The notes under the pieces were generated by a model. The model had not been told where the DNA came from. It did not search any database and was given only the letters and a program-made list of their open reading frames with translations. Of a stretch of DNA of 64,000 nucleotides, positions 17,722 through 37,832 are shown one piece after another. This DNA is from Gemmatimonadota bacterium (GTDB lineage Bacteria > Gemmatimonadota > Gemmatimonadetes > Gemmatimonadales > Gemmatimonadaceae). Where the stretch lies: NCBI GenBank assembly GCA_014192065.1, contig BJHH01000001.1, positions 558,001-622,000 on the forward strand, written 5' to 3'. The position numbers and the translations under genes were made by a program. How positions within the stretch are numbered: the first letter of the stretch is position 1; each line of letters opens with the position of its first letter.

Positions 17722-17761
17722 GCGCGGGGGTTTTCCGGAAACGGATGCCCCCGCGCTTTTT
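17722..17761 (+). terminator. Intrinsic terminator of the SRP RNA gene
   Basis: GCGCGGGGG pairs perfectly with CCCCCGCGC (17748-17756) over a 17-base loop, followed at once by TTTTT. This is the one textbook factor-independent terminator with a T tract in the window. Confidence 0.92.
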
Positions 17762-17834
17762 GTGTTGCTCCCGTCGGACCGCTCGCGGCGTACATTATCC
17801 CGCGGTTTCCCTAACGCCTGACGGAGTCGCCGCA

Positions 17835-20820: not shown

Positions 20821-21045
20821 GCTAGCCCGCCCAGGAGCATGTATGCGGCCCCCATATGGCGTTTCGGCAGCGATTCCCTACATTAGAGGCAACCGGGGTC
20901 GCCAGCGACTCCCGGGTTTGCCGCGTAAGACATCTTGACAGATGGGTTTAGCAGCGCAGTAGCCACGCACTATCGATCAGCAGTCCTCATGTGCCGGGCG
21001 CGCCTCTGGCGCGTCCTGAACGACACACAGCAGGGAGGAACGAGG

Positions 21046-23544
21046 ATGGCCCGTTCGGCAATCGTCGCAGGTGTGGTAGCGCTGGCGTTCACCGCCGGCT
21101 CGGCTACCGGCACTGGTGTCCCCGAGCATCGTGCTCCTGCGGCCCCACCGGCAGCGGCCGTCCCCGTCGTGCATCGTGGCCCAGAGGTCAAGTCTGCGGT
21201 TGGTGCGCGCGGCATCGAGATGAAGGCGCTCTCGGCTGTCGTCCAGCGTTACTGCCAGGGTTGCCACAGCGCCAAGAATCCACGCGGTAACGTGAGTCTC
21301 GAAGGCTATGCCGTCGATTCCGCATTCGAAAATATCGAAGTTACGGAAAAAGTGATCCGCAAGTTGCGGACGCAGATGATGCCGCCACCGACTTCTCGTA
21401 AGCCCGGCGGCGACACGCTCATGGCGCTCGCCGAGACGCTCGAACAGACCATCGATCGGGCGGCGAAGCCGAATCCTGGCAACCGGACGTTCCAGCGGCT
21501 GAACCGGCCAGAATACGAAGCGGCGGTGCGCGACCTGCTCGACGTTGAGTTCAAGGCCGCTGACTTTCTTCCGCTTGATACAAAGAGCGCGAACTTCGAC
21601 AACATTGCCGATGTGCAGATGTTGTCGCCGACGCTGCTCGAGGCGTACCTGAACGCCGCGGCCGCGGTCAGCCGCATAGCCCTTGGCGACAAGACCGCCC
21701 CGCCGATCCCGGTGACCTACCGTCAGTCGCCGTTTGTTTCGCAGCACCCGTGGGACCAAGTTCAGGGCGCCCCGTACGGCACGCGCGGTGGCATTGTCGA
21801 GACGCACACCTTTCCAGGCGATGGGTTGTATCGCTTCCGCGTGAACATCGGCGGCGGCGTCGGTACCAAGCTGGAGGACGTCGACATCTCGATCGAAGGC
21901 GCCCGCGTCGCACTGCTGCATTACGAAAAGGGCATTGAGCGCACGTTCGCCTCAGCCGACGCGCCGCAGGGCGCTGACTACATCTGGACTGAGCCGTTCG
22001 CCGTGAAGGCCGGCCAGCAGCGCATTTCGGCGGCATTCGTGCGTCGCAATGAGGGTCCGTATGAAGACCTCATCAAGCCGCATGACTGGTCTATGGCGAG
22101 CAACGGCAATGCCAGCGCTGGAACCACCGCGCCGCCGCACGTGGTCGAATTCAGCGTGATCGGGCCCGAGAAGGTCACCGGAATGTCTGACTCGCCAAGC
22201 CGCAAGATCGTCTTCTCGTGCCGCCCCAAGGCCAAGGCGCAGGAAGCGCTCTGCGCTCAGCAGATTGTGTCGCGGCTTGCGACGCGCGCCTATCGCCGGC
22301 CGCTCCGCAAGCATGACACCGACGCCCTCATGAAGTTCTACACCTCCGGGGCCAAGTCTGGCGGTTTCGAAGAGGGCGTTCGCACAGCGGTGCAGGCCAT
22401 GCTCGCCAGTCCGTACTTCATTTTCCGGTTTGAGAGCACACCGGCGAACCTGGTGGCCGGCAAGCAGTATTCGATCAGTGATGTCGAACTGGCTTCGCGG
22501 CTCTCGTTCTTCATCTGGGGGAGCATTCCCGACCAGCGGCTTCTCGCGCTCGCCACCGCCGGCACGCTCTCGCAGAAGCCGGTCCTCAACGCCGAAGTTC
22601 GTCGCATGCTGGCCGATCCCAAGGCGTCCGCTTTGGCTCCCCGGTTTGCGTCACAGTGGCTGCGCCTGCAGGATCTCGACAAGGTGCACCCCGACGCCTC
22701 GTTCTTTCCCGACTACGATCAGCAGCTCGCCAACGCGATGATCCGCGAAACCGAGATGTTCTTCACGGATGTGGTCCGCAACGACCGCCCCGTGCTCGAA
22801 CTGTTCACGGCCGACTGGACCTACGCCAACGAGCGGCTCGCCAAGCACTACGGCATCCCGAATATTGCCGGCACGCAGTTCCGTCGCGTGAGCTACCCAG
22901 ACAGCACGCGCCGCGGACTGCTCGGCCATGGCAGTATCCTCGTGCAGACGTCGTTTGCCAACCGCACGTCGCCGGTGTTGCGTGGCAAGTGGGTGATGGA
23001 AGTGCTGCTCAATAGCCCGCCGCCGCCGCCGCCGCCGGACGTCCCCGATCTCGAAGCCACGGTGGACGGCAAGGATGGGCGTCCGCTCACCACGCGTGAG
23101 CGCATGGAACTGCACCGCAAGAGCCCGATTTGCAGCGCGTGCCACGTCTACATGGATCCGATCGGACTCGCGCTCGACAACTTCGACGTGACCGGTAAGT
23201 GGCGGTTCCGCGAGAACGGTGCGGCGCTCGACACGCGTGGCCGCATGTACGACGGCCTCGACATCGCGACGCCGGCGGAGTTGCTGAAGTCGCTGATGTC
23301 ACGACCGGTTCCGCTGGTCCGGGCCTTCACGGAAAACCTGATGGCGTATTCCATGGGCCGCCGCGTCGAGGACTTCGACCAGCCGACCATCCGCTTGATC
23401 GTGCGCGACGCCGCGAAGAGCGGCTACAAGTTCTCGTCGTTCGTTACGGCAATTGTGAACACACCTGCGTTTCGCCGTCGCACGGCGGATCCGGTCAGTA
23501 GCACCGTTGGCAGCTCGCACGACTCGCCCACCACCCCGCGGTAG
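21046..23544 (+). CDS. Planctomycete-type cytochrome protein, DUF1592/DUF1588/DUF1585 family (cassette 1)
   Basis: The 832-residue protein has a signal peptide, then a class I cytochrome-like haem site CQGCH (about 69-73). The chain of DUF1587 (FQRLNRPEYEAAVRDLL), DUF1595, DUF1592 (LASRLSFFIWGSIPD), DUF1588 (RRGLLGHGSILVQTS, NSPPPPPPPDVPDLE) and DUF1585 domains follows, with a second haem-type site CSACH (about 695-699). Two CxxCH motifs imply a di-haem c-type protein outside the cytoplasm. The family is widespread in Planctomycetota, Verrucomicrobiota and Gemmatimonadota, always uncharacterised. The ATG at 21046 follows a GGGAGGA ribosome site; the frame runs 37 codons further up without a signal. 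It heads a three-gene cassette repeated in mirror image at 28495-34238. Confidence 0.88.
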   Translation: MARSAIVAGVVALAFTAGSATGTGVPEHRAPAAPPAAAVPVVHRGPEVKSAVGARGIEMKALSAVVQRYCQGCHSAKNPRGNVSLEGYAVDSAFENIEVTEKVIRKLRTQMMPPPTSRKPGGDTLMALAETLEQTIDRAAKPNPGNRTFQRLNRPEYEAAVRDLLDVEFKAADFLPLDTKSANFDNIADVQMLSPTLLEAYLNAAAAVSRIALGDKTAPPIPVTYRQSPFVSQHPWDQVQGAPYGTRGGIVETHTFPGDGLYRFRVNIGGGVGTKLEDVDISIEGARVALLHYEKGIERTFASADAPQGADYIWTEPFAVKAGQQRISAAFVRRNEGPYEDLIKPHDWSMASNGNASAGTTAPPHVVEFSVIGPEKVTGMSDSPSRKIVFSCRPKAKAQEALCAQQIVSRLATRAYRRPLRKHDTDALMKFYTSGAKSGGFEEGVRTAVQAMLASPYFIFRFESTPANLVAGKQYSISDVELASRLSFFIWGSIPDQRLLALATAGTLSQKPVLNAEVRRMLADPKASALAPRFASQWLRLQDLDKVHPDASFFPDYDQQLANAMIRETEMFFTDVVRNDRPVLELFTADWTYANERLAKHYGIPNIAGTQFRRVSYPDSTRRGLLGHGSILVQTSFANRTSPVLRGKWVMEVLLNSPPPPPPPDVPDLEATVDGKDGRPLTTRERMELHRKSPICSACHVYMDPIGLALDNFDVTGKWRFRENGAALDTRGRMYDGLDIATPAELLKSLMSRPVPLVRAFTENLMAYSMGRRVEDFDQPTIRLIVRDAAKSGYKFSSFVTAIVNTPAFRRRTADPVSSTVGSSHDSPTTPR

Positions 23545-23573
23545 CGCACTCTAGAGCCCAAGGAGCTCTCTCG

Positions 23574-24974
23574 ATGAATTTCCTGACTCGCAGCGCCATG
23601 CCCCGTCGCACCTTCCTCCATGGAATGGGCGCGACGATCGCGCTACCCTATCTCGACGCCATGGTGCCGGCGCTTGGCCGGTTCGGATCCGGAGCGGCAG
23701 CGTCCGCGGCCGCCGACAAGACGCGATTCATCGCGATCGAATCGGTGCACGGTGCGGCCGGCTCCAACGCATGGGGCGCCACCAAGCACCTCTGGTCGCC
23801 AGCCAAGGCGGGCCGTGAGTTCGAACTCATCGCTGACGGCGCCCTGCCAGCTCTCGAACCGTGGCGCAAGTATCTGACCATCGTCAGCAACACCGACACA
23901 CGTATGGCCGAGGCGTTCGAAGCGCCCGAGATCGGTGGCGACCACTTCAGGTCCAGCGCGGTGTTCCTGACGCAGTCGCACCCCAAGCAGACGAACGGTT
24001 CCGACCTCTACGTCGGCACCTCAATGGATCAGCTCATCGCCCGTCGCATCGCCGGCGATACAGCGATCCCGTCCATGCAGCTCTGCATTGAGAATCTCGA
24101 CCAAGCTGGCGGCTGCTACTACAACTACGCTTGCGCGTACACGGACACGGTCAGCTGGGCGAGTCCGAGCGAGCCCCTCCCGATGATCCGCAATCCGCGC
24201 ATCGCATTCGACCTGCTGTTCGGGGCGGGGACCTCGGGTGAGGATCGCATGTCGCGGCGCAACGCGAACAAGAGCATCCTCGATTGGATCGTCGGCGAGG
24301 TGAACGGGCTCAAGAAGGACCTCGGAGCTGCTGACCGCGAGCGCATCGAGAAGTACCTCGAAGACATCCGGGAACTCGAACGCCGCATCCAGGCTGTCGA
24401 GAAGCGAAACTCCACCGGCGATGTCCGCGCGATTCCTGAGGCGCCGATCGGCGTGCCGGACTCGTTCGAGGAACATGTCAAGATGATGTTTGATTTCCAG
24501 GTCCTCGCGTTGCAGTCGGACATGACGCGGGTGATTTCGTTCAAAACTGGCCGCGATGCCTCGAGCCGCGCGTTCCCGGAGAGCGGAACCACCAAGGGCT
24601 TCCACCCGGCATCGCACCACGGCGGGCGTGAGGCGGCGATCCTCGACTTCAACATGATCAATCGCTACCACGTGGCGATGTTGCCCTACTTCCTCGACAA
24701 GCTCAAGAACTCGCAGGAAGGCGATTCGAACCTGCTCGACAAGACGGTCATCATGTACGGCTCGCCCATGGGCGACCCGAATCTCCACAACCATCGCCGC
24801 TGCCCGCTCATGTTCCTTGGACACGGCAATGGCGCCCTCGAAGGCAACGTGCACCTCAAGGCGCCTGACGGCACGCCGATGGCCAATGTGTTCCTGTCGC
24901 TCATGCACAAGTTCGGCATGACCGATATGAAGAACTTCGGCGACTCCACCGGCGAATTCGCGCTCAGTCACTAG
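23574..24974 (+). CDS. Tat-exported DUF1552 protein (cassette 1)
   Basis: The 466-residue protein begins with a Tat motif (PRRTFLHGMGA, arginines 11-12) and a hydrophobic segment. The DUF1552 body includes ESVHGAAGSNAWGATKHLWSP (quoted in part), EIGGDHFRSSAVFL, IPSMQLCIE, FKTGRDASSRAFPESGT, HHGG and GSPMGDPNLHNHRRCPL. DUF1552 proteins are related in layout to the DUF1501 sulfatase-like group and are typically encoded next to a DUF1592 cytochrome; no activity is established. Tat export suggests folding or cofactor insertion before translocation. An AAGGAG site precedes the ATG, 29 bases after the DUF1592 stop. Likely partner: the cytochrome upstream. Confidence 0.88.
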   Translation: MNFLTRSAMPRRTFLHGMGATIALPYLDAMVPALGRFGSGAAASAAADKTRFIAIESVHGAAGSNAWGATKHLWSPAKAGREFELIADGALPALEPWRKYLTIVSNTDTRMAEAFEAPEIGGDHFRSSAVFLTQSHPKQTNGSDLYVGTSMDQLIARRIAGDTAIPSMQLCIENLDQAGGCYYNYACAYTDTVSWASPSEPLPMIRNPRIAFDLLFGAGTSGEDRMSRRNANKSILDWIVGEVNGLKKDLGAADRERIEKYLEDIRELERRIQAVEKRNSTGDVRAIPEAPIGVPDSFEEHVKMMFDFQVLALQSDMTRVISFKTGRDASSRAFPESGTTKGFHPASHHGGREAAILDFNMINRYHVAMLPYFLDKLKNSQEGDSNLLDKTVIMYGSPMGDPNLHNHRRCPLMFLGHGNGALEGNVHLKAPDGTPMANVFLSLMHKFGMTDMKNFGDSTGEFALSH

Positions 24975-24997
24975 CAGACAACAGGGAGGAGCGGTCG

Positions 24998-27079
24998 ATG
25001 TCCAAGCTTCGCATACGATTCCTCGCTGCCTGCGCCATTCCGGTGCTGGTTGCCGCCGCGTCGTTCGCGCCGGCAACACCGGCGGCGGACGCCGCCATGC
25101 GCGGCGATCTTGCCGCGCTCAAGGCGCTGGTGCTTCAGGGGGCCAACGTCAACACGCCGCAGGGCGACGGCATGACCGCCTTGCACTGGGCCGCCGATCG
25201 TGGCGATCTGGCGATGGTGAACCTGCTGCTGCAGTCCAAGGCCGGCGTGAAGGCCGTGACGCGGGTTGGCACGTATACTGCGCTACATATCGCCGCCAAG
25301 GGCGGCCACGGCGACGTGATCGCCGCGCTGCTCAAGGCAGGGGCAGACGCGAACGCACTCACGGAAACAGGCGCTGCGGCGCTGCATTTCGCCTCCGGAG
25401 CCGGTACGACTGACGGTGTGGCGGCGTTGCTCGACAAGGGCGCCGACCCGAATATGCGTGAGCGCGAGTGGGGCCAGACGCCGCTCGTCTTTGCGGCCTC
25501 AAACAATCGCCCGCAGACGATTACGCTGCTCATCAAGCGCGGCGCGGATCCGTCGATCAAGACCAAGATGGTGAACGTCAACGACGAAACGGCGCAGGAA
25601 CAGGCCGGGACGCGCGCACGCAACGAAGTGCTCATCGCTTTTGAACCGGAAAAGCACCGCGATTCGACCAAGCCGCCTACGGGCGGCGCCGACGTTCCCG
25701 TTGGTGCCATGGCGGGCCGAGGGGCCGCGGTGACCGGCGGCGTCACGCTCCGGATGCTCGGATTTGCAGCGATTGTCGGTGACACTCTGCCCGATCCCAA
25801 CGCGGCCGCCGCCGGCCGTGGCGGGCGCGGTGGCCCGCAGCCCAAGGGTCCGTTCACGACCAAACAGATCCAGACGGCGATCGAAGCAGGACGCAAGGTC
25901 CAGGCAACGGCGCTTGCGGCAAAGGGACCCGTCACCGAAGTCGTGGACACGATCAACGGTGGCGTCGCGGGCTTCGCGAATACGGTCGGCGGTATTGGCG
26001 GCCTCACACCACTCCATCATGCCGTGCGGCAGGGCAGCCTCGCGGCTGTCAACGCGCTGATCGACGGTGGCGCGAAGGTCAATACGCCGAATAGTGTGGA
26101 CAATACGACCCCGCTTCTTTTGGCCACGATCAACGGGCAGTTCGACGTGGCGATGCGGCTCATCGCGGCCGGGGCGGATCCGAATATCGCCGCCGGGTCG
26201 GGGCTGGCGCCGCTCTATGCAACGATCAACACGATGTGGGCGCCGCGGTCGCGGTTCCCCCAGCCGCAGGCAGTGCAGAACCAGCGCACGACGCACATCG
26301 AGCTGATGGAGGCGTTGCTCAAGGCAGGTGCCAAGGCCAACGTGCGCCTCACGTCGCAGTTTTGGTACTTCGCATACAACAATTGCGGCAATGCGAACTG
26401 CGGTCTTGAGAACATCGAGGGCACGACACCGTTCTGGCGCGCGGCCTACGGACTAGACGTTGAAGCGATGAAGCTGCTGATGAAGTTCGGCGCCGATCCG
26501 ACGCTTCCGTCCTTCCGTACCCCGGTGGCCGCTGGCCGCGGAGGTCGCGGAGGTCGTGGTGGCGGCGGCGCTGGTGGTGACAACCCTGATGATCCGGCAC
26601 CTGCAGCCGCGCGTGGCGGCGGTGGCGGACGTGGCATGCTGCCGGGTCCTGGGCAGCCAGCGATCGATCCGGCCATCGACTCGGCCTCCAAGGCCGTGCC
26701 GCCTGGGATCGGTGTCTTTGTCATTCACAGCGCCGCGGGCGTTGGCTATGGCAACGGATATGCGGGCAATGCCCATCGGCACGCTCCCGACGGTTGGATG
26801 GCGACGATGCGGTACGTGGTCGAGGTCCTGCACGCCGACGTGAATGCCCGTGACAACAACGGCTACACGGCGATGCACCATGCGGCCGCTCGTGGCGACA
26901 ACGAGATGATTCTGTATCTGGTGTCGAAGGGCGCTGACGTGAAGGCTGTGGCGCGGAATGGCCGCACGACAGTGGACATGGCGAACGGACCGGTGTCGCG
27001 CATCACGCCGATCCCGGAGACCATCGCGCTGCTCGTGAAGCTGGGCGGTATCAATACGCACCGCTGCGCATCGTGCTGA
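24998..27079 (+). CDS. Secreted ankyrin-repeat protein with C-terminal CxxC (cassette 1)
   Basis: The 693-residue protein has a signal peptide (about 1-30) and two blocks of ankyrin repeats (about 33-195 and 330-500, with a last pair near 610-680). They show standard units such as GMTALHWAADRGDLAMVNLLL. Gly/Arg-rich low-complexity linkers separate the blocks. A block with HRHAPDGW precedes the last repeats. The chain ends in THRCASC, leaving a CxxC pair at the extreme C-terminus; the second-cassette homologue ends in SHKCVSC. It may scaffold the DUF1592/DUF1552 pair outside the cytoplasm. A GGGAGGAG site precedes the ATG, 23 bases after the DUF1552 stop. Confidence 0.88.
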   Translation: MSKLRIRFLAACAIPVLVAAASFAPATPAADAAMRGDLAALKALVLQGANVNTPQGDGMTALHWAADRGDLAMVNLLLQSKAGVKAVTRVGTYTALHIAAKGGHGDVIAALLKAGADANALTETGAAALHFASGAGTTDGVAALLDKGADPNMREREWGQTPLVFAASNNRPQTITLLIKRGADPSIKTKMVNVNDETAQEQAGTRARNEVLIAFEPEKHRDSTKPPTGGADVPVGAMAGRGAAVTGGVTLRMLGFAAIVGDTLPDPNAAAAGRGGRGGPQPKGPFTTKQIQTAIEAGRKVQATALAAKGPVTEVVDTINGGVAGFANTVGGIGGLTPLHHAVRQGSLAAVNALIDGGAKVNTPNSVDNTTPLLLATINGQFDVAMRLIAAGADPNIAAGSGLAPLYATINTMWAPRSRFPQPQAVQNQRTTHIELMEALLKAGAKANVRLTSQFWYFAYNNCGNANCGLENIEGTTPFWRAAYGLDVEAMKLLMKFGADPTLPSFRTPVAAGRGGRGGRGGGGAGGDNPDDPAPAAARGGGGGRGMLPGPGQPAIDPAIDSASKAVPPGIGVFVIHSAAGVGYGNGYAGNAHRHAPDGWMATMRYVVEVLHADVNARDNNGYTAMHHAAARGDNEMILYLVSKGADVKAVARNGRTTVDMANGPVSRITPIPETIALLVKLGGINTHRCASC

Positions 27080-27113
27080 TTGGCTCGGCTAGCTGATCAA
27101 CTCTGACCGCTGA

Positions 27114-27146
27114 AACGGCCGCCGGCGCTCCACGCCGGCGGCCGTT
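27114..27146 (+). terminator. Strong hairpin terminator of cassette 1
   Basis: AACGGCCGCCGGC and GCCGGCGGCCGTT form a perfect 13-bp stem with a 7-base loop. It begins 35 bases after the ankyrin stop and ends six bases before the ATG of the next gene, so it occupies that gene's ribosome-binding region. No T tract follows. Confidence 0.75.
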
Positions 27147-27152
27147 CCGCAC

Positions 27153-28454
27153 ATGTCCAAGCGCAACCGGAGCGCACCGCCAGCCCTCTCGTACGACGAG
27201 GCAGTACACGCGATCGCGGCGCTCGTGAGCCCTGGCGCGCGCGCGGCGGTCATTGACGCGCTGACCGACGGTGGGCAGGCGGCCGCACCGGATGCGCTCG
27301 CATCACTTCGTGCGGCCATGCGCGCGCATGCCTTTCCGGTCGAGGCCGGCACCCTGTCGGTACGACGCGTGGTCGAGTCGCTCGACGGCCGCACGCGACG
27401 CGACGGCCTCCACGTGATGCACGGCTGGGATTACGCGGCCCAGCGGCGCCCGCACGACATCGCGCCAGTATTGCTACTCGACTACTGCGCCCGGCTCGGC
27501 ATTGAGGAGCTGCGCGCGACGGATATGCTGCGGGTCCTGCTCGAGCACTACTGTCTTGCCGTATTGGGCCTGCTGCTCGTGCGCGCGTGGGACGAAGGCG
27601 ACGCCAATCGCCACCTGGATCGGATTGACGGACTTTTGCGGGACCTCCAGGCACCAGGCGCGAGCGGGCATCCTGTGGCCGACGGTAGCGGCAGCCTGCT
27701 GATGCTCGCGGTGGCCTACTTTCACCCCGAAGAGCACGCCTACGGCGCGCTGCTTCGAAAGGTCTGGACCCTCGATGAGGCGCATCGTCTCCGGCTTGCC
27801 TTGCCATGTGCCGGAATCATGGCGAGCCACCTACGATGGGGCTGGCGCTTCATGTACCGGCAGGATCTTGGTGCGATGCGTGCGGACAACGCGGTGGACT
27901 ATCCGTGGGCGCTGTTCGCGCTCATGACGCTCATGCGGGAGTACACGAGGCTCTTGCCAAACGGTGACGCCGCGGCGCGCGCGACGATGGCTGCTGCGCT
28001 GTTGAACGGGCTCGCCTGCGATCCGGAGCTGTTCACCAACGCACCGCCGGCGTTCTTGGCTGAATACCATGCAGAACATGCGGAGCTCCGTGCGTCGCTG
28101 AGCCGCCATCGCGAGCAGTTGCTCGCGGACTTCGCACGTATTGAACCGAGCGCGCGCCGGTTCTCGCCGGTCGGATTTGCCTGCAACTTTGTCTCGAACG
28201 CCTCCGTCGCCCTTGCCACTATCGCGTGTGCTGACGGCACGCGGTATGCGGCGCTCGATCTGCTGTTCCGCCCTGAGGTCGAGGACAATACGGCTGGCTC
28301 GTCGAGAGCCGAACAGATGGCGCGACGGCTGATGCAGTATGCGGCGCATCCAGACCGATTGGGCGCTGGTGGCGCGCCGCTCATCGTCTACGACCCGTAC
28401 GACGGCGTACACCACTATAACGCCGTGGTGCGCGCCCTCACTCGTAGCGGCTAG
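27153..28454 (+). CDS. Hypothetical protein between the two mirrored cassettes
   Basis: I do not recognise this 433-residue product. It has no signal peptide. It is mostly alpha-helical in appearance, rich in Ala, Leu and Arg, with several aromatic-rich helices (LRWGWRFMYRQDLGAM near 230, VDYPWALFALMTLMREY near 250). The C-terminus ends with YDPYDGVHHYNAVVRAL. Histidines and acidic residues are scattered (LLEHYCLAVLGLLL, YFHPEEHAYGALL) without a clear catalytic motif. It lies alone between two terminators. No ribosome site is visible because a hairpin precedes the ATG closely; the true start might be a GTG near 27226. Codon use matches its neighbours, so it is probably real. Confidence 0.6.
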   Translation: MSKRNRSAPPALSYDEAVHAIAALVSPGARAAVIDALTDGGQAAAPDALASLRAAMRAHAFPVEAGTLSVRRVVESLDGRTRRDGLHVMHGWDYAAQRRPHDIAPVLLLDYCARLGIEELRATDMLRVLLEHYCLAVLGLLLVRAWDEGDANRHLDRIDGLLRDLQAPGASGHPVADGSGSLLMLAVAYFHPEEHAYGALLRKVWTLDEAHRLRLALPCAGIMASHLRWGWRFMYRQDLGAMRADNAVDYPWALFALMTLMREYTRLLPNGDAAARATMAAALLNGLACDPELFTNAPPAFLAEYHAEHAELRASLSRHREQLLADFARIEPSARRFSPVGFACNFVSNASVALATIACADGTRYAALDLLFRPEVEDNTAGSSRAEQMARRLMQYAAHPDRLGAGGAPLIVYDPYDGVHHYNAVVRALTRSG

Positions 28455-28469
28455 TCCGTCCTCACGGCA

Positions 28470-28493
28470 CGCAGGCGGCCGCTGCCGCCTGCG
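28470..28493. terminator. Bidirectional hairpin between the hypothetical gene and cassette 2
   Basis: CGCAGGCGGC and GCCGCCTGCG form a perfect 10-bp stem with a 4-base loop in the 40-base space between two convergent stop codons. It can serve both directions. Confidence 0.75.
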
Positions 28494-28494
28494 G

Positions 28495-30363
28495 TCAACA
28501 CGATACGCACTTGTGGCTGTTTTTCGATCCCAGCCGCTCGAGCAAGGCAACGGTGTCCAGGTACGGTGAGATGCGCTGGACGGGTCCATTGGCCATGTCG
28601 GCCGTCGTCTGGCCGCTCCGGGATACGGCCTTCACATCGGCGCCTTTCGACACGAGATAGTTGATGAGCTCGTTGTCTCCGCGCGCCGCCGCGAAGTGCA
28701 ACGGCGTGTGTCCGTTGTTGTCGCGGGCATTCACGTCGGCGCCCAGTTGTTCCACGAGGAACTTTACAGCGGGTATCCAGCTGTCTGGCGCGTGCCGATG
28801 GTCATTGGCCGCGAACCCTTGGCCGTATCCAACGCCGGCTGCCGCGATGACGGTCGGGATTCCCGGGCCGTTGTCTGGCACCGGCGGAAGTCCTGACGGA
28901 TCGAGCCGAACGGGAACATCGGCCCCGCCGGCAGGCGGGGTGCCACCGCGGCCACCGCGGCCAGCGCGCGCGGCCGGCCGAATGGTCGGAACTTTCGGGT
29001 CGGCGCCGTGGGCGAGCAGGAGTTTCATCGCGGGGATGTCCGTCGCGTAGGCCGCACGCCAGAACGGTGTCGCGCCGGCGAAGTCGACGCGCAGGTTGTC
29101 GCGATTGTATGTCGTATACCAGAGGCTCCGCTTGAGCCGCACGTTGGGATCGGCCTTGGCCTTGAGTAGCGACTCCATCAACTGCAGGTAGGACGACTGC
29201 TGTTGCAGGTTGAAGGTCGGCTGCGGGGTCCGTGACGTCGGGGCCCATTCCTTGTTGATCACGGCGTAGAGCGGCGTCGCACCGGCGTCACTCGCCAGGT
29301 TGGGATTGGCGCCCTTGTCGAGCAGGAACTTGACCAAGTCGTAGTGGCCATTGAGCGCAGCCATCAGGATCGGCGTGGTCTGGTCGGCCGGGCTCACCTG
29401 ATTGATGTCCGCTCCGCCTGCCAGCAACGCGCGGACCGTCTCGACATGCCCTTCGCGCGTCGCCAGCAGCAGCGCGGTCAGTCCGCCCTGCACGGCAACC
29501 AACTCCGTGTAGCCCGGCGGGTCTTCGTCGCCACCGTTGCCAGCCACCACAACACGGGTCGCTTCTTCGGCCGAGTCCGCCGCGACCGTCGCAACGCCGT
29601 TGAGCCCACGCCGTTCGACCACCAGCGCGGCGCGCACGGCCTCCTGTACCTGTCGGGAGTCGGGGTGCCATCCGACCACAGTGTCGGCGCCTTGTTCCTT
29701 GCGGAGCCGTGCCAGCGTCTGATTGCGACGCTGGCGTGTGGCGCGGTCCTGTGCGACGAGGGCAAGTAGGTCCACCACGCGTGCCGCGATGGCGGGGTCG
29801 GCTCGGCGTGCGAGCAGGAGCCGCACCGCAGCCGTGCGGCCGCCAGCGGCGGCAAGCATCAATGGTGTCTGGCCCCATTCAGGTTCCGTCGCGTTCACGG
29901 CGGCGCCACGGTCGAGCAGCGCCCGGACCCCTATGGTGTCGCCGGACATCGCCGCTAAGTGCAGCGGTGTCACGCCGGTGGCAGTGACGAGGATAGGGTC
30001 AGCGCCGGCCGTGAGCAGGGCCACGACGACGGATCCATGCCCTCCTTCGGAAGCGAGGTGAAGCGGTGTCAGCGCACCAATCCGTGTGGTGGCGGCGTGC
30101 CGGGCCTTGGATCGCAACAAGACCGCGCTGAGTTCGGCATCGCCGTTCCTGGACGCCCAGTGAAGTGCGGTCATGCCATCGCCCTGTGGGGCGTTGACGT
30201 CGGCGCCCTTGGCGATCAACGCACGTACCGCGGCGGCGTCCTGCCGAGCCGCGGCATCAGCGACCGAGGATTCGACGGGGCGTGCCGCGCCGATCACCGT
30301 AGCTGCCGCGATGAGTACGCCAAGCCGCGTGGCCATGCGTACCGCTCCGCGCGCGCCGCTCAT
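28495..30363 (-). CDS. Secreted ankyrin-repeat protein with C-terminal CxxC (cassette 2)
   Basis: The 622-residue homologue of the cassette 1 ankyrin protein has the same order. There is a signal peptide (about 1-30), an N-terminal ankyrin block (GMTALHWASRNGDAELSAVLL, quoted in part), a linker (about 195-265), a second block (TPLYAVINKEWAPTSR in the same position as its partner), a Gly/Arg-rich stretch, the HRHAPDSW block, two last repeats, and the terminal SHKCVSC. Shared architecture and shared tail show common descent with clear divergence. Its ATG overlaps the DUF1552 stop by four bases (ATGA), so translation is coupled. Confidence 0.88.
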   Translation of the reverse strand: MSGARGAVRMATRLGVLIAAATVIGAARPVESSVADAAARQDAAAVRALIAKGADVNAPQGDGMTALHWASRNGDAELSAVLLRSKARHAATTRIGALTPLHLASEGGHGSVVVALLTAGADPILVTATGVTPLHLAAMSGDTIGVRALLDRGAAVNATEPEWGQTPLMLAAAGGRTAAVRLLLARRADPAIAARVVDLLALVAQDRATRQRRNQTLARLRKEQGADTVVGWHPDSRQVQEAVRAALVVERRGLNGVATVAADSAEEATRVVVAGNGGDEDPPGYTELVAVQGGLTALLLATREGHVETVRALLAGGADINQVSPADQTTPILMAALNGHYDLVKFLLDKGANPNLASDAGATPLYAVINKEWAPTSRTPQPTFNLQQQSSYLQLMESLLKAKADPNVRLKRSLWYTTYNRDNLRVDFAGATPFWRAAYATDIPAMKLLLAHGADPKVPTIRPAARAGRGGRGGTPPAGGADVPVRLDPSGLPPVPDNGPGIPTVIAAAGVGYGQGFAANDHRHAPDSWIPAVKFLVEQLGADVNARDNNGHTPLHFAAARGDNELINYLVSKGADVKAVSRSGQTTADMANGPVQRISPYLDTVALLERLGSKNSHKCVSC

Positions 30364-31736
30364 AGCGCGAGCTCCCCGGTGCTGTCACCAAAGCTGTGGA
30401 GATCATCGTGTCCGAGCCGGTGGAGCAGCGTGAGCATCGCGTTGGCCATTGGGGTGCCTTCGGGAGCTTTGAGGTGTGAGTTGCCGGCGAGCTGGCCATT
30501 GGCGCCGCCGAGCAGAATCAACGGGCAGCGGCGATGATTGTGGACGTTACTGTCGGCCATTGGCGAGCCGAACATCACCACGGTCTTGTCGAGCAGCGGC
30601 GTACCGCCGTCCATTGTCGAGCGCAGCCGTTCGAGCAGGTAGGGCAACATGCCCACATGATACTTGTTGATCTGGAAGTACTCGGCGACGCGCTTGGGAT
30701 TGTTGCCGTGGTGCGACGCGTTGTGGAACCCTGCCGATGTACCGCTTTCCGGGAAGACACGGCCCGATGCGTCACGGCCGGTCTTGAGCGTGAACACGCG
30801 CGTCATGTCGGCCTCGAAGGCGAGTACCTGGAGGTCGAACATCAACTTGATGTGATCTTCGTACGAGTCGGGCACTCCCGACGGGGCGCCCGCGAGCTCG
30901 CGGGCTTCGCCGGAACGGTTGCGCTCCTCGGTACGCTGGATCCGGCGCTCGATCTCGCGGACGTTTTCGAGGTACTGGTCCATCCGGCCGCGATCGGCGG
31001 CGCCGAGTTCGCGCTGCAGGTCGGCAATGCGTCCCGTGATGAAGTCGAGGATGCTTCCCGTGGTGCGTCGACGCGACGCCCGTTCGGCGGACGACCCACC
31101 AGTGCCGAACAGTTGGTCGAACGCGATCCGGGGGTCGCGAATCATCGGAAGCGGTTGGGTAGGCGAAGCCCAGCTGACCATGTCCGTGTAGACGCATGAG
31201 TAGCCATACGCGCAGCCGCCAGCGCGATCGATCGGCTCGATGCAGAGCTGCATCGACGGGATCGGCGTGGCCTGGCCGAAGCGCTGGGCGTGAAGCTGGT
31301 CGAGCGACGTCCCGACATAGATGTCGGAACTTTCGGTCTGGGTGGGATGCGCCTGCGTGAGGTACACAGCGCTCGACCGGAAATGGTCGCCGCCGATTTC
31401 CTCGGGCTTGTACGCTTCGGCCATCCGGACGTCGGTATTGCTCACGATCGTCAGGTACTTTCGCCACGGCTCGAGCGGCAGGAGGGCAGACGGTGTCAGG
31501 TCGAACGCACTCCCGGTCGCGGCGGGCGACCAGAAGTTCTGCGTGGCGCCGAAGGGGCTGCAGCCGGCCGCACCATGTACCGCTTCGATGCAGATCAGGC
31601 GTGTCGGGTCTGCGGCGGCCGACAGTCGCGAGAGCCCGCGCGCCGGGCGCATGGCGTCCAGCATTGGCAGGGCGACCGTCGCGCCGAGTCCTTGCAGGAA
31701 AGTGCGGCGCGGAAGATGCTTCCCGATGATCAGCAT
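30360..31736 (-). CDS. Tat-exported DUF1552 protein (cassette 2)
   Basis: The 458-residue protein has a Tat motif (PRRTFLQGLGA, arginines 10-11) and the DUF1552 blocks seen in the first copy: EPWRKYLTIVSNTD, EIGGDHFRSSAVYL, IPSMQLCIE, LKTGRDASGRVFPESGT and SNVHNHRRCPLILLG. Long stretches are identical to the cassette 1 protein while the N-terminus and linkers differ, so this is an old duplication or independent acquisition of a paralogue. It lies 54 bases after the DUF1592 stop and overlaps the ankyrin start. Confidence 0.88.
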   Translation of the reverse strand: MLIIGKHLPRRTFLQGLGATVALPMLDAMRPARGLSRLSAAADPTRLICIEAVHGAAGCSPFGATQNFWSPAATGSAFDLTPSALLPLEPWRKYLTIVSNTDVRMAEAYKPEEIGGDHFRSSAVYLTQAHPTQTESSDIYVGTSLDQLHAQRFGQATPIPSMQLCIEPIDRAGGCAYGYSCVYTDMVSWASPTQPLPMIRDPRIAFDQLFGTGGSSAERASRRRTTGSILDFITGRIADLQRELGAADRGRMDQYLENVREIERRIQRTEERNRSGEARELAGAPSGVPDSYEDHIKLMFDLQVLAFEADMTRVFTLKTGRDASGRVFPESGTSAGFHNASHHGNNPKRVAEYFQINKYHVGMLPYLLERLRSTMDGGTPLLDKTVVMFGSPMADSNVHNHRRCPLILLGGANGQLAGNSHLKAPEGTPMANAMLTLLHRLGHDDLHSFGDSTGELAL

Positions 31737-31790
31737 GCGCGGAGGGGTGTTGAGGGAAACGACGTCATCGTCACGGTTCAGTGATTCGGG

Positions 31791-34238
31791 CTATTGCTCG
31801 TCTGCAGTCTGTTCGCGCCGCATGCGGAATGCGGGGCTGTTCACAACGCCGATGATGTAGGAGGAGAACCGGTGGTCGCGCTTCCCGGCGTCCCTGACGA
31901 TTGTGCGTATCGTGGGCATGTCGAAAGCTTCCACTCGTCGGCCCAGTCCGTACGCGAGCAGGTTTCTCGTGAACGTCTGCAGCAGCGTCTCACGCTGCTT
32001 GAGTAATGCCTTGCTCAGGTCCGCTGGGCTCTCGACCTTGGTGCCGTCCCAGAGCTCACCGCGCGGATCGATCGGCATGCCGTTATCGCGTACGCGCCAG
32101 CGCCCGGTCACGTCGTAGTGCTCAAGCGCCAGCCCGATCGGATCCATCATTTTGTGGCACGACTGACAGGCCGGATTCCGTCGATGCTCTTCCATCCGTT
32201 CGCGCACCGTCAACAGCTGTCCGTCTTTCGAATCCGCGGTGGCTTCGAGGTCGGGGACACCCGGTGGCGGCGGCGGCGGCGGGCTGTTCAGCATTACTTC
32301 CATCACCCACTTGCCGCGCTCGACCGCCGACGTGCGGGTGGCCTGCGAGGTGAGCGTGAGTATGCTGGCGTGGGCCAAGAGGCCACGCCGGTTCGCGTCG
32401 ACCTGCGGTACGCGACGAAACTGTGCACCGGCGACGCCGGTAATGCCGTAGTGCGAGGCGAGCCGCTCGTTCACGAAGGTGTAGTCGGCGGTGAAGAGGT
32501 CAAGGACGCTTTGGTCCTGACGGATGATGTACTCGACAAAGGTCTCGGTCTCGCGGCGCATTGCCGTGCGCAGTTGTTCGTCGAAGTCGGGGTACTTCCG
32601 CACGTCGGGTTGCACATTGTCGAGATCGCTGAGCCGGAGCCACTGGCCCACGAATCGCGACGCGAGCGATGCGGACCGCGGATCGGCCATCATGCGCCGC
32701 ACCTGACGGTCGAGCACCGCCGCATCAGTGAGCCGTCCGTTGCCGCCGAGCGTGATGAGCTCGTGGTCGGGTGGGGCACCCCAGATAAAGAACGCGAGCC
32801 GCGAGGCGAGGTCAATGCTGCTCAGGCGGTACACGGTGCCTGCGGCAGCCGCGGTGGCTTGGCGTTCAAACCGGAAGACGAAATCGGGACTGGCGAGCAT
32901 GGCTTCGAGTGCGGTGCGTACGCCAGACTCGAACCCGTCTTTCGCCGCGGCGCCGTCGTACAGCCCCATCAGTGGCTCAACGTCGCGCGCCGCGACCGGC
33001 CGGCGATAGGTCACGGTTGCGAGGCGGGTGACGATCGTCTTGGCGCAGGCGCGGGCCACCGCTGCCGTCGCGCCTGGCGCCGGCGTGCAGGTAAAGATCC
33101 GGCGGCGCACCGGAGAATCCGATACTCCGGTCGGTTTGTCCGGACCGGCGATGACGAGGTCGCGAAGGTGTGGATTGAGCGAGAACCCATACGCCGTGGC
33201 GTTCGATGTGCTCGCGAGCGACCACCGCAGCGGCGACACGAGGTCCTGCGTCACGCTTTGGAATGTCGGGGGAATGAATGCCGCAGACACACGGTGCGAA
33301 CCGGCGGTCACCTGGACCGGCTCCGTCGCCATCGATACGCCGTTCGGATCGGCGGCGGTCATCCATCGGTCCATGTCGAGCAGGGCGACGCGCGATCCGT
33401 CGATCGACACCTCGATCTGTTCGCTGCGTGCGTTGCCGCCGGCGAACGCACCGGTGGTCTCGTGGTAGAAAAACAGGCGGAAGCCGTAGGTGCCGTCGGC
33501 AGGGAAGGTGTGCACCACCGAAATCCCGCCGCGCGTGCCGATCGGTGCGCCTTCGACGTACTCAAGCTGCGACGCCGTCCTTGGTACGGTGTACGTCGAT
33601 GCCGCCGCGACGACGCGCGGGTTTCCGACGGCGAGCCAGCTCACCTCGCTCGCGGCACGCAGGTACGCATCGAGCAGCGTTGGAGAGAGTACCTGCGCGT
33701 CGGCGATGTTGTCGAAATTTTCACTCTTGGTGTCGAGCGGCAGGTAATTGCCCGCGTCGATCGCCATGCCCAGTAGGTCGCGGATGGCGGCCGTGTACTC
33801 GGCGCGGTTTAGTCGCTGAAATGTGCGTGTGCCGGGATTGGGGTTCGCGGCGGCGTACGCGTCGAGTTGGCGCTCCAAGGTGTCGACGAGCGCGGCCAGA
33901 GTGTCCGGGCCCGGTCGTGCCATTCCCGGGGGTGGCATCATCCCAGTCCGAACCTTGGCGATCACCTTTTCGGCGATCTCGGAGTTCTTGCTCGCTGCGG
34001 ACACATCGAACGAGTCGAGTGAGATATTTCCGCGTCGAACCGTTCCATTGTGGCAACGCTGGCAGCTTCGCCGAACGACCTCGTTGAGCGCCACGGCCGA
34101 CACGCTCGTCCGGCGGTGACCGGTTGGCGCTTCGGGGGGCAGGGTCAACGGCGTTCGCCCTGGGCCGCCACCGGCGCCACCGGCGCCGAAAGCGGTCAGA
34201 ATGCCCAGCATGGTCGACATTGCCACGAGCGACTTCAT
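31791..34238 (-). CDS. Planctomycete-type cytochrome protein, DUF1592/DUF1588/DUF1585 family (cassette 2)
   Basis: The 815-residue protein has a short signal peptide, an N-terminal haem-type site CQRCH (59-63), the DUF1587 (FQRLNRAEYTAAIRDLLG), DUF1592 (LASRLAFFIWGAPPD), DUF1588 (NSPPPPPPPGVPDLE) and DUF1585 domains, and a second site CQSCH followed by MDPIGLALEHYDVTGRW. The domain order and the proline run match the cassette 1 protein. A GGAGG ribosome site four bases before the ATG fixes the start, and a TATAGT box lies 23 bases upstream. It heads the minus-strand cassette that faces cassette 1. Confidence 0.88.
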   Translation of the reverse strand: MKSLVAMSTMLGILTAFGAGGAGGGPGRTPLTLPPEAPTGHRRTSVSAVALNEVVRRSCQRCHNGTVRRGNISLDSFDVSAASKNSEIAEKVIAKVRTGMMPPPGMARPGPDTLAALVDTLERQLDAYAAANPNPGTRTFQRLNRAEYTAAIRDLLGMAIDAGNYLPLDTKSENFDNIADAQVLSPTLLDAYLRAASEVSWLAVGNPRVVAAASTYTVPRTASQLEYVEGAPIGTRGGISVVHTFPADGTYGFRLFFYHETTGAFAGGNARSEQIEVSIDGSRVALLDMDRWMTAADPNGVSMATEPVQVTAGSHRVSAAFIPPTFQSVTQDLVSPLRWSLASTSNATAYGFSLNPHLRDLVIAGPDKPTGVSDSPVRRRIFTCTPAPGATAAVARACAKTIVTRLATVTYRRPVAARDVEPLMGLYDGAAAKDGFESGVRTALEAMLASPDFVFRFERQATAAAAGTVYRLSSIDLASRLAFFIWGAPPDHELITLGGNGRLTDAAVLDRQVRRMMADPRSASLASRFVGQWLRLSDLDNVQPDVRKYPDFDEQLRTAMRRETETFVEYIIRQDQSVLDLFTADYTFVNERLASHYGITGVAGAQFRRVPQVDANRRGLLAHASILTLTSQATRTSAVERGKWVMEVMLNSPPPPPPPGVPDLEATADSKDGQLLTVRERMEEHRRNPACQSCHKMMDPIGLALEHYDVTGRWRVRDNGMPIDPRGELWDGTKVESPADLSKALLKQRETLLQTFTRNLLAYGLGRRVEAFDMPTIRTIVRDAGKRDHRFSSYIIGVVNSPAFRMRREQTADEQ

Positions 34239-34305: not shown

Positions 34306-34359
34306 GGAGCGCTAGTCCGGCGCCACCGTCCAAGCACCACTCGGGCGGTCTAGCGCTCC
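34306..34359. terminator. Inverted repeat at the end of the secreted hypothetical gene
   Basis: GGAGCGCTAG (34306-34315) and its exact complement CTAGCGCTCC (34350-34359) enclose 34 bases. The right arm contains the stop codon of the minus-strand gene. A terminator for that gene is likely; the arms are exact, but the loop is long. Confidence 0.4.
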
Positions 34360-35330
34360 ATCGTGAGCATCAGCTTCAGGTGCTCGTCTGCCGTCGCGAG
34401 GCCACCCTCACCGGCGTCGGGTGTGATCCGTGCATCGCCGTTCGCATCGGCTCCATTGATGAGCTGGTCGGCGAGCGACGCCATCTGGCTGACGAGCCCG
34501 GCGGCGTCGGCGGCCGTTGTCGCCGCCTGGATGCGTTGGGCGAGCGCGATGATCTGGTCGGCGCGGACCACGGTGTTACGCGCGCTGGTGGCGATATGCT
34601 TGGCGTGGAGGCCCACGTTGGCCGACGCCCCTGGCTGCGTGGCCGCGAGCTCGATATGCACCGCGACGGCCGCGGCTCCCTTCTTGACGCCATAGCCCTG
34701 CCCAGGCCCTGTTGCGATAATCGACGGATCGAGTGCGTGGATCACGTGGGCTGCGTGCGTCTTCATATATTCGAGGTTCGTCGGCTGTCTCGACGCGAGC
34801 GACGCGTGTTGCGCGGCGATACGAGCTTCGGCAATCGCGGTCGGCAGCAGGCCCTGGCGGTTGGGTGTGTCCGCGAACGCGTTCGCGACGTGGCCGATGT
34901 GCGTGCCGACTGCTCCGGCTGGGAGCGCCGCGGCCGGTGCCGCGGCTGGTGCCTGGCTCGGCAGCGGGGCGCCGGCCAGCGTGACGAGCACGCTGTCGTA
35001 CACCAGCCGCGCCGCCATGTCGAAACTGATCTCGTACGTCCGGCGCCGATAGTCGGCGTCGCTCAGGCCCGCTTTCTGGATGCTCTGGGCTACGAGCTCC
35101 TGCAGTTTGCCGCGGAGTTCCCGCTGCTGCTCGTCCTTCTTGTTCCGCGCCTGCGACAGCAGGATGTTGATCGAGTCGCGCGTGCGCGCGATAGCCGATT
35201 CGAGTTTCGCCAACGCGGCGATCTCGTCGCGCGAGAGCGTCGTCGTGGGGCGCTGTTGTGCGGAGGTCACCGTGGAACGGGTGGTCAGCGCGGCAAACAG
35301 CAGGGCAACGGCGATTGGTCTGACGGTCAC
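34350..35330 (-). CDS. Secreted His-rich hypothetical protein with an EF-hand-like loop
   Basis: The 326-residue product has a signal peptide (about 1-22, ending TSAQQ), a charged helical region (about 30-90), an Ala/Pro-rich linker, and a helical C-terminal half with several histidine motifs (THIGHVANAF, THAAHVIHAL, GLHAKHIA). The loop DANGDARITPDAGE resembles a calcium-binding EF-hand. The GTG at 35330 was chosen over an ATG twelve bases upstream because GGAGG lies five bases before the GTG. The function is unknown; metal binding is a reasonable guess. It diverges from the epimerase gene across 181 bases that hold a CGTGGAC/GTCCACG dyad (35447-35468). Confidence 0.65.
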   Translation of the reverse strand: MTVRPIAVALLFAALTTRSTVTSAQQRPTTTLSRDEIAALAKLESAIARTRDSINILLSQARNKKDEQQRELRGKLQELVAQSIQKAGLSDADYRRRTYEISFDMAARLVYDSVLVTLAGAPLPSQAPAAAPAAALPAGAVGTHIGHVANAFADTPNRQGLLPTAIAEARIAAQHASLASRQPTNLEYMKTHAAHVIHALDPSIIATGPGQGYGVKKGAAAVAVHIELAATQPGASANVGLHAKHIATSARNTVVRADQIIALAQRIQAATTAADAAGLVSQMASLADQLINGADANGDARITPDAGEGGLATADEHLKLMLTMER

Positions 35331-35511
35331 GCAAGCCTCCATCGGACGGCGGGGTGGGAGCGCCGAATGTTGGGATGATAGCGCCGAGGTGGCGACTTCG
35401 CATCCAAAATACGCCCGACGGGCTGTGGACGCTGCAGCCCCCGGCGCGTGGACACCCGCGGGTCCACGACCGTAGTTTCTACGTTTCGCCTGATCTCTTC
35501 CCGGGGGACGC

Positions 35512-36708
35512 ATGGCCACGAACCGTCGCACGTTCATCAAGTCCGTTACCGCCGTTGGCAGCGCCATCGGCTTGGCCGGAGTGCCGAGGCTCGCGCTCGG
35601 CCAAGAGGCCGAGTCGGAGCCGGTGTGGACGCCCAAGCCAGTCGGCAAGGCGCGCGTGCCGCTCAACATTCTGATTCTGGGTGGCACCGGATTTACCGGT
35701 CCTGAGCAGGTCGAGTACGCCATCGCGCGTGGCCACCGTGTCACGCTGTTCAATAGAAACAAGACGCGCCCCGGCGCGTTCAAAGGCAAGGTCGCCGAGG
35801 AACTGGTGGGCGATCTCAACAACGACACGAGCGCGCTTCAGGGGAAGAAGTTCGACGTTGTCATCGACAACCCGACCACGGCGCCCGCGTGGGTGCGGAA
35901 CGCGGCGAAGCATCTCGCCGGAAACGTCAAGCATTACATCTTCGTCTCGACAACCTCCACGTACAGCGACCAGAGTATTATCGGCCTGAATGAGAACAGC
36001 CCGACGGTGGTCCTGCGCGAAGGGATCGATCCGTATTCCGTGGACCCGCAGGTGATTGGCGGGAACTACGGCGGTCTCAAGGTGCTCGCCGAAAAGGAAG
36101 TACAGACACAGTATCCGGGAATTTGGACGGTGATTCGGCCATGCCTGATCGTCGGCCCACTCGACCGGACCGACCGCTTCACCTGGTGGCCGGCACGCAT
36201 CGACAAGGGCGGCGAGGTGCTCGCGCCAGACAAGCCGGACGATCCCTGCCAGTTCATTGATTCGCGCGACCTCGCCGAGTGGACCGTGCGCGTGGCAGAG
36301 GCACAGGAGTTCGGCCTGTACAATGCGATTGGCCCGACACACCCGATGACGGTTTCCGAAATGCTCTACGGCGTGAAGGCCGGGACCACCGCCGGCGCGC
36401 GGTTCACCTGGGTGCCCTGGGATTTCCTGCAGGAGCAGAAGGTGCGTCCCTGGCGCGACATGACCGTCTGGCAGCCGCCGTATGGACGCACAGCGGGCTA
36501 TCAACGGCGTGATTCCCGGAAGTCGATCGCGAAGGGGCTCACCTTCAGGCCGCTCGCGGTCACGGCGAAAGACACGCTCGACTGGCACAAGACTCGGCCA
36601 GAGCAGGAGAAACTCGCCACGCTGAATGGGGAGATCAACGGCATCGGCCTCAAGCGTGAAGCCGAAGTGCTCGCGGCGTGGCATGCGAAAGTGAAGGCTG
36701 GGCAATGA
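35512..36708 (+). CDS. Tat-exported NAD-dependent epimerase/dehydratase family protein
   Basis: The 398-residue protein carries a full Tat signal (NRRTFIKSVT, hydrophobic stretch, cut near LALGQ). A Rossmann-fold extended SDR domain follows, with GGTGFTG (57-63) and a YxxxK-type catalytic pair in YGGLK (about 186-190). Export of an NAD(P)-binding enzyme by Tat fits cofactor loading in the cytoplasm. The sugar or other substrate is unknown. A GGGGGAC ribosome site precedes the ATG. The stop overlaps the next gene's ATG (ATGA), and the two products are close paralogues. Confidence 0.85.
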   Translation: MATNRRTFIKSVTAVGSAIGLAGVPRLALGQEAESEPVWTPKPVGKARVPLNILILGGTGFTGPEQVEYAIARGHRVTLFNRNKTRPGAFKGKVAEELVGDLNNDTSALQGKKFDVVIDNPTTAPAWVRNAAKHLAGNVKHYIFVSTTSTYSDQSIIGLNENSPTVVLREGIDPYSVDPQVIGGNYGGLKVLAEKEVQTQYPGIWTVIRPCLIVGPLDRTDRFTWWPARIDKGGEVLAPDKPDDPCQFIDSRDLAEWTVRVAEAQEFGLYNAIGPTHPMTVSEMLYGVKAGTTAGARFTWVPWDFLQEQKVRPWRDMTVWQPPYGRTAGYQRRDSRKSIAKGLTFRPLAVTAKDTLDWHKTRPEQEKLATLNGEINGIGLKREAEVLAAWHAKVKAGQ

Positions 36709-37832
36709 GCATCACACGGCGGGACTTACTCACGGGCGCGGCAAACGGAACCCGCCGGCGCGCGGGTTCGCTCGCCCACGAGCGCGTCGGCGCCCCACTC
36801 AACATCCTGATCCTTGGCGGGACGGGGTTCACCGGGCCGGAGCAGGTGGAGTACGCCACCGCGCGCGGCCACCGAGTGACGCTATTTAACCGCAATCGCA
36901 CGCGACCCGACCTGTTCAAGGGGCGGGTCGACCAGCTGATCGGTGACCTCAACGGCGATGTCGAATCGCTGAAGGGGCATTCGTTCGACGTGGTGATTGA
37001 CAACCCGACGACGGCGCCCGCGTGGGTCCGGAACGCCGCCAAGCACCTCGCCGGGCACACCAAGCACTACCTGTTTATCTCGACGCTCTCGGTCTACCCC
37101 AACAACACGGTGACCAACCGCGACGAGTCGGATGGGCTGACGCCGCTGCCCGAAGGGCTCGATCCGTATACGGTGCCGGCGGATCAGGCCCGCCGCTACT
37201 ACGGCGCGCTCAAGACCGAGTCGGAGAGGGAAGTCGCTCGGCAGTATCCGGGCATCAATACGATTGTTCGCCCGGGGCTGATTGTCGGTCCGCTCGACAA
37301 GTCGGACCGCTTCACCTACTGGCCGGTGCGGATCGACCGTGGCGGCGAGGTGCTCGCGCCGGGTAACCCGGACGATCCGAATCAGATCATCGACTCTCGC
37401 GATCTCGCGGAATGGATGATCCGCCTCGCCGAGCAGCGCGTGCTCGGCACCTTCAACGCCGTCGGTCCGGTGATCTCGATGTGGGAGCTGCTCGCCGGCA
37501 TTAAGTCAGTCACAACGGCTGGCGCCCAGTTCACCTGGGTGCCGGCCGACTTCCTGCGGGCCAACGGTGTGACGCCGTGGCGCCACATGCCGACCTGGAT
37601 GCCTCCTGTGCCGAATGCGGGCTTCTCTACGCGGAACAACGCGCGTGCCGTGGCGGCTGGTCTCACCTTTCGTCCGCTCAGCATGACAGCCAAGGACACG
37701 CTCGACTGGCACAAGACGCGGCCCGCTGAGGAGCAGAAGTCTTTGGCTGACGGGGCGATCGCGGGGATTCCGGCGACGAAGGAAGCCGAAGTGATTGCCG
37801 CGTGGAAGGCGAAGCCGCAGAGCGCGCCCTGA
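36705..37832 (+). CDS. Epimerase/dehydratase paralogue with a degenerate Tat signal
   Basis: The 375-residue protein matches the preceding one along its whole Rossmann domain: NILILGGTGFTGPEQVEYA, VVIDNPTTAPAWVRNAAKHL, and YGALK as the YxxxK pair. The N-terminus keeps TRRDLLTGAA, but the hydrophobic segment is replaced by GTRRRAGSLAHERVG, so Tat export seems lost. The other two frames of this stretch do not restore a hydrophobic segment. It is a tandem duplicate, translationally coupled to the first copy. Its end overlaps the start of the transporter gene by 31 bases. Confidence 0.85.
   Translation: MSITRRDLLTGAANGTRRRAGSLAHERVGAPLNILILGGTGFTGPEQVEYATARGHRVTLFNRNRTRPDLFKGRVDQLIGDLNGDVESLKGHSFDVVIDNPTTAPAWVRNAAKHLAGHTKHYLFISTLSVYPNNTVTNRDESDGLTPLPEGLDPYTVPADQARRYYGALKTESEREVARQYPGINTIVRPGLIVGPLDKSDRFTYWPVRIDRGGEVLAPGNPDDPNQIIDSRDLAEWMIRLAEQRVLGTFNAVGPVISMWELLAGIKSVTTAGAQFTWVPADFLRANGVTPWRHMPTWMPPVPNAGFSTRNNARAVAAGLTFRPLSMTAKDTLDWHKTRPAEEQKSLADGAIAGIPATKEAEVIAAWKAKPQSAP

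Follow-up and report, generated by a model that had tools for sequence, protein, structure and literature searches.

Two face-to-face cassettes encoding a dihaem cytochrome, a DUF1552 protein and an ankyrin-repeat protein with a C-x-S-C tail in a Gemmatimonadota genome

The window analysed here is a stretch of 64,000 nucleotides from a Gemmatimonadota genome (contig BJHH01000001.1). It contains two three-gene cassettes, A and B, which converge on a single gene (Table 1). Each encodes in the same order a cytochrome (C), a DUF1552 protein (H) and an ankyrin-repeat protein (K). This arrangement had been proposed in a sequence-only reading, and all six open reading frames (ORFs) were located at the expected place with the domains described. 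The ORF of the cassette A cytochrome opens at 20935; its likely start is an internal ATG at 21046, which precedes a plausible signal peptide. The genes of cassette A are separated by 29 bp (C to H) and 23 bp (H to K), and those of cassette B by a 54 bp gap between C and H followed by a 4-bp overlap of H and K. The spacing of both cassettes fits operons. Each protein has its diverged counterpart with the same domains, as had been read, with identities between A and B of 52–53% for C, 62–63% for H and 48% for K. A third full trio is located on another contig of the same 2.45 Mb genome (G000:C3, L007:6534-12475).

Table 1. Genes of the two cassettes and their immediate neighbours, in coordinates of the window
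Feature	Coordinates	Strand	Evidence
C of cassette A, exported dihaem c-type cytochrome	20935..23544	+	ORF, Pfam, two CxxCH, homologue alignment
H of cassette A, Tat-exported DUF1552 protein (PF07586, HXXSHH)	23574..24974	+	ORF, Pfam E 1.2e-77
K of cassette A, secreted ankyrin-repeat protein, terminus THRCASC	24998..27079	+	ORF, Pfam
Gene between the cassettes, 433 aa, outside known families	27153..28454	+	ORF
K of cassette B, secreted ankyrin-repeat protein, terminus SHKCVSC	28495..30363	-	ORF, Pfam
H of cassette B, Tat-exported DUF1552 protein	30360..31736	-	Pfam E 1.3e-85, AlphaFold2 model
C of cassette B, exported dihaem cytochrome	31791..34238	-	Pfam, model pLDDT 90.6
Accessory gene X, probable 330-aa product	34350..35828	-	DUF4168-like N part and His-rich HxGHV domain

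Both cytochromes contain the domains DUF1587, DUF1595, DUF1592, DUF1588 and DUF1585 in that order, all five above the Pfam gathering score. They have the PF07631 and PF07627 domains of the ‘planctomycete cytochrome’ family and group with PSCyt3; cytochromes of the planctomycete type have been named since 2004. Each has a leader peptide, as judged by eye, and two CxxCH motifs that are the predicted sites of covalent haem attachment. In an alignment of 91 rows C59, C62, H63, M101, C694 and H695 are invariant, and M101, located downstream of the first haem site, is the probable axial ligand. Those apparent exceptions at the haem sites that were examined are truncated rows or CX3CH spellings. The CX3CH form occurs at the first haem site of four loci (L059, L091, L094 and L095, with CADDCH, CAASCH and CAALCH) that belong to one clade of Gemmatimonadaceae kin. 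Loss of the first haem in this clade was considered and rejected, the CX3CH motif being present instead.

In the AlphaFold2 model of C from cassette B (815 aa; pLDDT in Table 1) residues 206–370 form a beta sandwich that matches the carbohydrate-binding modules CBM6, CBM35 and CBM36, with Z scores up to 10.0 (2.5 Å over 104 residues) at about 12% identity. The fold is shared with these modules, but here it is embedded inside a cytochrome, lying between the N-terminal haem domain and the DUF1592/1588 portion that carries the second haem. In C of cassette A the CBM-like insert follows DUF1587 and precedes DUF1595. The domain may be sugar-binding-like, and such folds also bind non-sugars. For the helical remainder of C there were no matches among those listed by Foldseek and VIA, where the CBM-like domain fills the list, and a search by sequence gave no credible solved relative of C.

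The H proteins of both cassettes have a twin-arginine start, match PF07586 above the Pfam cut-off and carry the HxxSHH motif at 338–343. The AlphaFold2 model of H from cassette B (458 aa, based upon 88 rows, pLDDT 86.8) matches sulfatases, phosphoethanolamine transferases and nucleotide pyrophosphatases over 240–280 residues (VIA-align Z 15–16), and the protein models as a fold of the alkaline-phosphatase/sulfatase superfamily. The H protein of cassette A (62% identity) is expected to have the same fold by homology. Choline sulfatase, EptA/MCR and ENPP share the overall fold (Z ~16), and the histidine-rich motif may be comparable. We take the HxxSHH segment to resemble the HxxGSHGP metal motif of the EptA/MCR enzymes, a likeness that serves as a lead only. 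H differs from the superfamily in sequence; a profile search of solved chains gave neither similarity to its members nor any other credible relative. H118, D146, D310 and H342 are invariant in H, and H338, H343, H399 and D395 are nearly so. With this His/Asp set the usual acidic metal ligand of the first strand is not evident, and because recognisable acidic ligands are missing at that position H may be a non-catalytic member.

The K proteins comprise multiple ankyrin repeats (PF12796 and PF00023 above cut-off, E < 1e-50), and most have a hydrophobic leader. Against the profiles of type-IV-secreted ankyrin effectors they score at most 110 bits, compared with curated NCBIfam cut-offs of 450–1400. 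Labels as type IV effectors or as MZA-defence proteins were both rejected, K lying far below the NCBIfam cut-offs.

In this genome the three K proteins all terminate in H-[RK]-C-x-S-C. A C..C terminus with no more than 2 residues beyond it is present in 125 of 127 K proteins; in 117 of the 127 the cysteines are located at −4 and −1, and a conserved block (DMANGP...LG..N) precedes them. At most one other cysteine is found in 83 of these 117 tailed proteins. A C..C terminus is also present in 88 of 88 complete trios. The ankyrin scan employed the patterns N[AT][PA]QGDGM and [TA]PFWRAAY, and the tail was not selected for, because these lie elsewhere in K. A role of C-x-S-C as a genome-wide sorting tag was rejected; the DNA pattern occurs 102 times compared with 150 for the control, a weak negative as any reading frame was counted. 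Two cysteines of H are specific to the type I units (C165 in 97% and C404 in 87%, compared with 5% in the type II units described below). They were considered as partners for the tail and are not diagnostic, tail-less relatives keeping C165.

The ankyrin scan, seeded with the K protein alone, gave at least 547 relatives, of which the best 79 loci were analysed. In these 79 there are ~100 complete trios, arranged with few exceptions in the order C-H-K on one strand, and often as two cassettes in tandem. The strict linkage of the three genes, proposed from the two copies in the window, is thus borne out in these best 79 loci, and the search of genomes for co-occurrence finds the trio to be widespread in Gemmatimonadota and their relatives. 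A second sample was free of ankyrin bias, because DUF1552 alone was the seed, and nearly all of its Gemmatimonadota copies are part of a full trio. H adjoins C in nearly all units. DUF1552 is present in 56 of 150 genomes of the phylum of the window, with up to 12 copies in each, and the phylum to which L074 (titled Acidobacteria) belongs has it in 14 of 99 genomes. Genome G234 of this Acidobacteriota sample carries 20 or more DUF1552 genes, a first look having given 38 candidates. At two loci (L068:2043-11887 and L105:4562-14315) the order is C-H-C-H-K, where two cytochrome/DUF1552 pairs have one common ankyrin gene. Trios also occur in MAGs titled Candidatus Kuenenia (L014) and Euryarchaeota (L071). 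The first title looks wrong, because the phylum sample of L014 yields matches identical to those of the window's phylum, and L071 may be a mislabelled bin.

Ankyrin repeats are frequent among bacteria, and common ankyrin genes might merely lie near DUF1592 and DUF1552 genes. Such a chance neighbourhood is hardly credible in view of the number and fixed order of the trios in those 79 loci, the congruence of the C, H and K trees, and the near absence from the same loci of ankyrin genes apart from C or H; only three such matches occur across all loci, one of them a tandem K and two at contig ends.

Trees of C, H and K were each constructed for 88 units. Compared in pairs they have 45 of 85 splits in common, while shuffled labels give no more than 3, and the pairwise distances are correlated at 0.82–0.87. 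Supported splits that conflict amount to 5–9 of ~50. The congruence of the three families, which the sequence-only reading had set as a check, is thus largely present, and shows the three genes to be co-inherited as a unit. In all three trees the nearest relative of copy A is L012_17658, while copy B is nearest to L010, L011 and L012_5396. Since these nearest relatives differ, A and B diverged before the genomes did. The L012 locus carries both copies face to face, and as the arrangement is common to this orthologous locus it is inherited.

The two cassettes had been interpreted as a mirror-image duplication, and their face-to-face placement around one gene would be expected from a recent local inverted duplication. 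However, the copies are just 48–63% identical, A and B are not sisters in the tree of C, H or K, and both are present in L012. A recent duplication in the window is therefore very unlikely, and was rejected on the basis of the trees. A and B are old paralogues.

The gene between the cassettes is without a Pfam or NCBIfam match, in agreement with the sequence-only reading, but it cannot be regarded as a neutral midpoint. It runs in the direction of cassette A, lying 73 bp downstream of its K gene, and in L012 the homologue (50% identity) likewise comes immediately after the A-type K. The gene was rejected as a component of the system, as it is rare, occurring in just 5 of the 99 genomes from the window's family, and in G144 it is located on contig C15 with the DUF1552 gene on contig C26.

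Beyond cassette B, gene X encodes a DUF4168-like region fused to a histidine-rich HxGHVxxxF...H...H...H domain, with an EF-hand-like DANGDARI. Homologues of its histidine-rich or DUF4168-like part are found near trios in ~18 loci, and beside trios in other genomes the parts are either split or fused. Two overlapping consecutive genes (35512-36708 and 36678-37832, both +) encode NAD-epimerase-like proteins that resemble each other, of which the first has a twin-arginine-type start; they form a second local pair of paralogues adjoining the cassettes. On the other side a PD40/TolB-like propeller is fused to an amidohydrolase (17745-20774, +). Propeller proteins are the commonest neighbour cluster (20 loci). 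Other recurrent neighbours of the trio are SusC/SusD pairs, a PQQ dehydrogenase, a sorbosone-dehydrogenase-like protein, HupE with a cytochrome, and creatininase and HpcH aldolase-like proteins. Each family is present in a minority of loci, partly from closely related genomes, and none is universal. The neighbour genes favour exported oxidative metabolism.

A second type of unit is found in Acidobacteriota and some Gemmatimonadota, with more distant C and H proteins (C below ~900 bits). In these type II units an ankyrin gene is adjacent, in varying order and strand, and its product lacks the tail (10 units). Against the K profile these type II ankyrins reach 180–274 bits, and the K signature motifs are missing from them; on both grounds they may be no more than remotely related to K. 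The tail is not needed for every C-H pair, since it is missing from the type II ankyrins of Acidobacteriota. A still more distant C-H set is without an ankyrin gene (9 units). The C tree places these as nested grades, from no ankyrin, through ankyrin without the tail, to ankyrin with the tail, and four changes explain the labels compared with 20.6 in shuffles. Most simply, and subject to the position of the root, the ankyrin protein was probably recruited first and the tail gained later, with one or two losses.

The export signals predicted on H, on most K proteins and (by eye) on C are best explained if the C-H-K module works outside the cytoplasm. The interpretation to which we incline, while giving it a little less than an even chance, is a periplasmic complex for redox and ester processing of a glycan-like substrate, with K as scaffold and thiol partner. 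K would bring C and H into contact, either in the periplasm or on the cell surface. C would hold the substrate through its CBM-like domain, H would cleave, transfer or sense an ester group of the sulfate or phosphate type, and C would donate electrons to the substrate or accept them from it. The two thiols of the K tail might alternate between the dithiol and the disulfide form, or else coordinate a metal, serving electron transfer or the cohesion of the complex. We infer the substrate, the assembly, the direction of electron flow and the tail chemistry. An exported redox or hydrolytic complex with an ankyrin scaffold, as was first suggested from the sequence, remains the best fit on the basis of the linkage, the congruent trees and the modelled folds. 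A more specific version is doubtful, namely an undescribed periplasmic complex oxidising a polymer, where the C-x-S-C of K would be a mobile redox or metal arm between C and H, and the tail arose once, after recruitment of the ankyrin protein.

K could alternatively be a biogenesis factor, bringing haem to C or keeping the CxxCH motifs of apo-C reduced by means of CxSC, and then leaving. A terminal CxxC is reminiscent of the thiol-disulfide reductants of cytochrome maturation, and AnkB-KatB is a pair of ankyrin protein and catalase. In Campylobacter, Cj1386 traffics haem to the catalase KatA (Flint et al., as cited in PMC11442138). Both pairs resemble K in that the gene for an ankyrin protein adjoins that for a haem protein, with whose activity the ankyrin protein is associated; they differ in that the partner is a catalase and there is no DUF1552. 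However, cytochromes with a tail-less ankyrin partner, or with none, retain both haem sites, so neither tail nor ankyrin is needed generally for haem attachment, and the tail is placed on a chain end with no thioredoxin fold. A biogenesis role thus seems unlikely.

The modelled fold of H, that of sulfatases and phosphoethanolamine transferases, could also indicate a module for hydrolysis or ester transfer, serving the use of polymers or the modification of the envelope. C would then act mainly in binding and structure, and redox would be incidental. The CBM-like domain of C and the SusC/SusD neighbours are consistent with this, as are the sulfatases noted to be encoded in the vicinity of PSCyt genes (He et al. 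2017, PMC5615132). Yet both haem sites and the probable axial methionine are invariant in all types, which argues that the haem is used, and we consider a chiefly hydrolytic module rather improbable.

The trio had been put forward as an undescribed system, and in this the pairing of such cytochromes with an obscure family is already on record. In freshwater Verrucomicrobia PSCyt3 genes usually adjoin a particular family of unknown genes; the cytochrome domains were described and carbohydrate use was suggested, with the function stated to be wholly obscure (He et al. 2017, PMC5615132). The C-H pair is like these PSCyt3/PSD pairs, where sets of PSCyt and PSD domains lie beside a conserved unknown partner, and here too one conserved partner family is next to the cytochrome. 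It differs in belonging to another phylum, and the main text of that paper has no ankyrin partner. The PSCyt3 partner is DUF1552 according to the literature index only, and DUF1552 is absent from the main text. The DUF1501-DUF1800 gene pairs, found for example with bacterial chitin synthases (PMC5122149), are similar in that a Tat-exported obscure protein and an obscure partner occur as tandem repeats and have moved together, but they belong to other Pfam families, with no cytochrome or ankyrin protein reported. No report of an ankyrin partner or tail with planctomycete-specific cytochromes was found in open-licence papers, a scope that makes this a weak absence, and it is the ankyrin member and its tail that were not found described.

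The new features are the C-x-S-C tail, the sulfatase-like fold of H, the CBM-like domain in C and the tail-less ankyrins near the C-H pairs of Acidobacteriota. Judging by three single-contig genomes (G019, G039 and G074), cultured strains seem to carry the trio, which makes tests feasible. The fixed third partner, the thiol tail, the fold of H and the CBM-like domain turn an obscure cytochrome/DUF1552 family into specific, testable claims.
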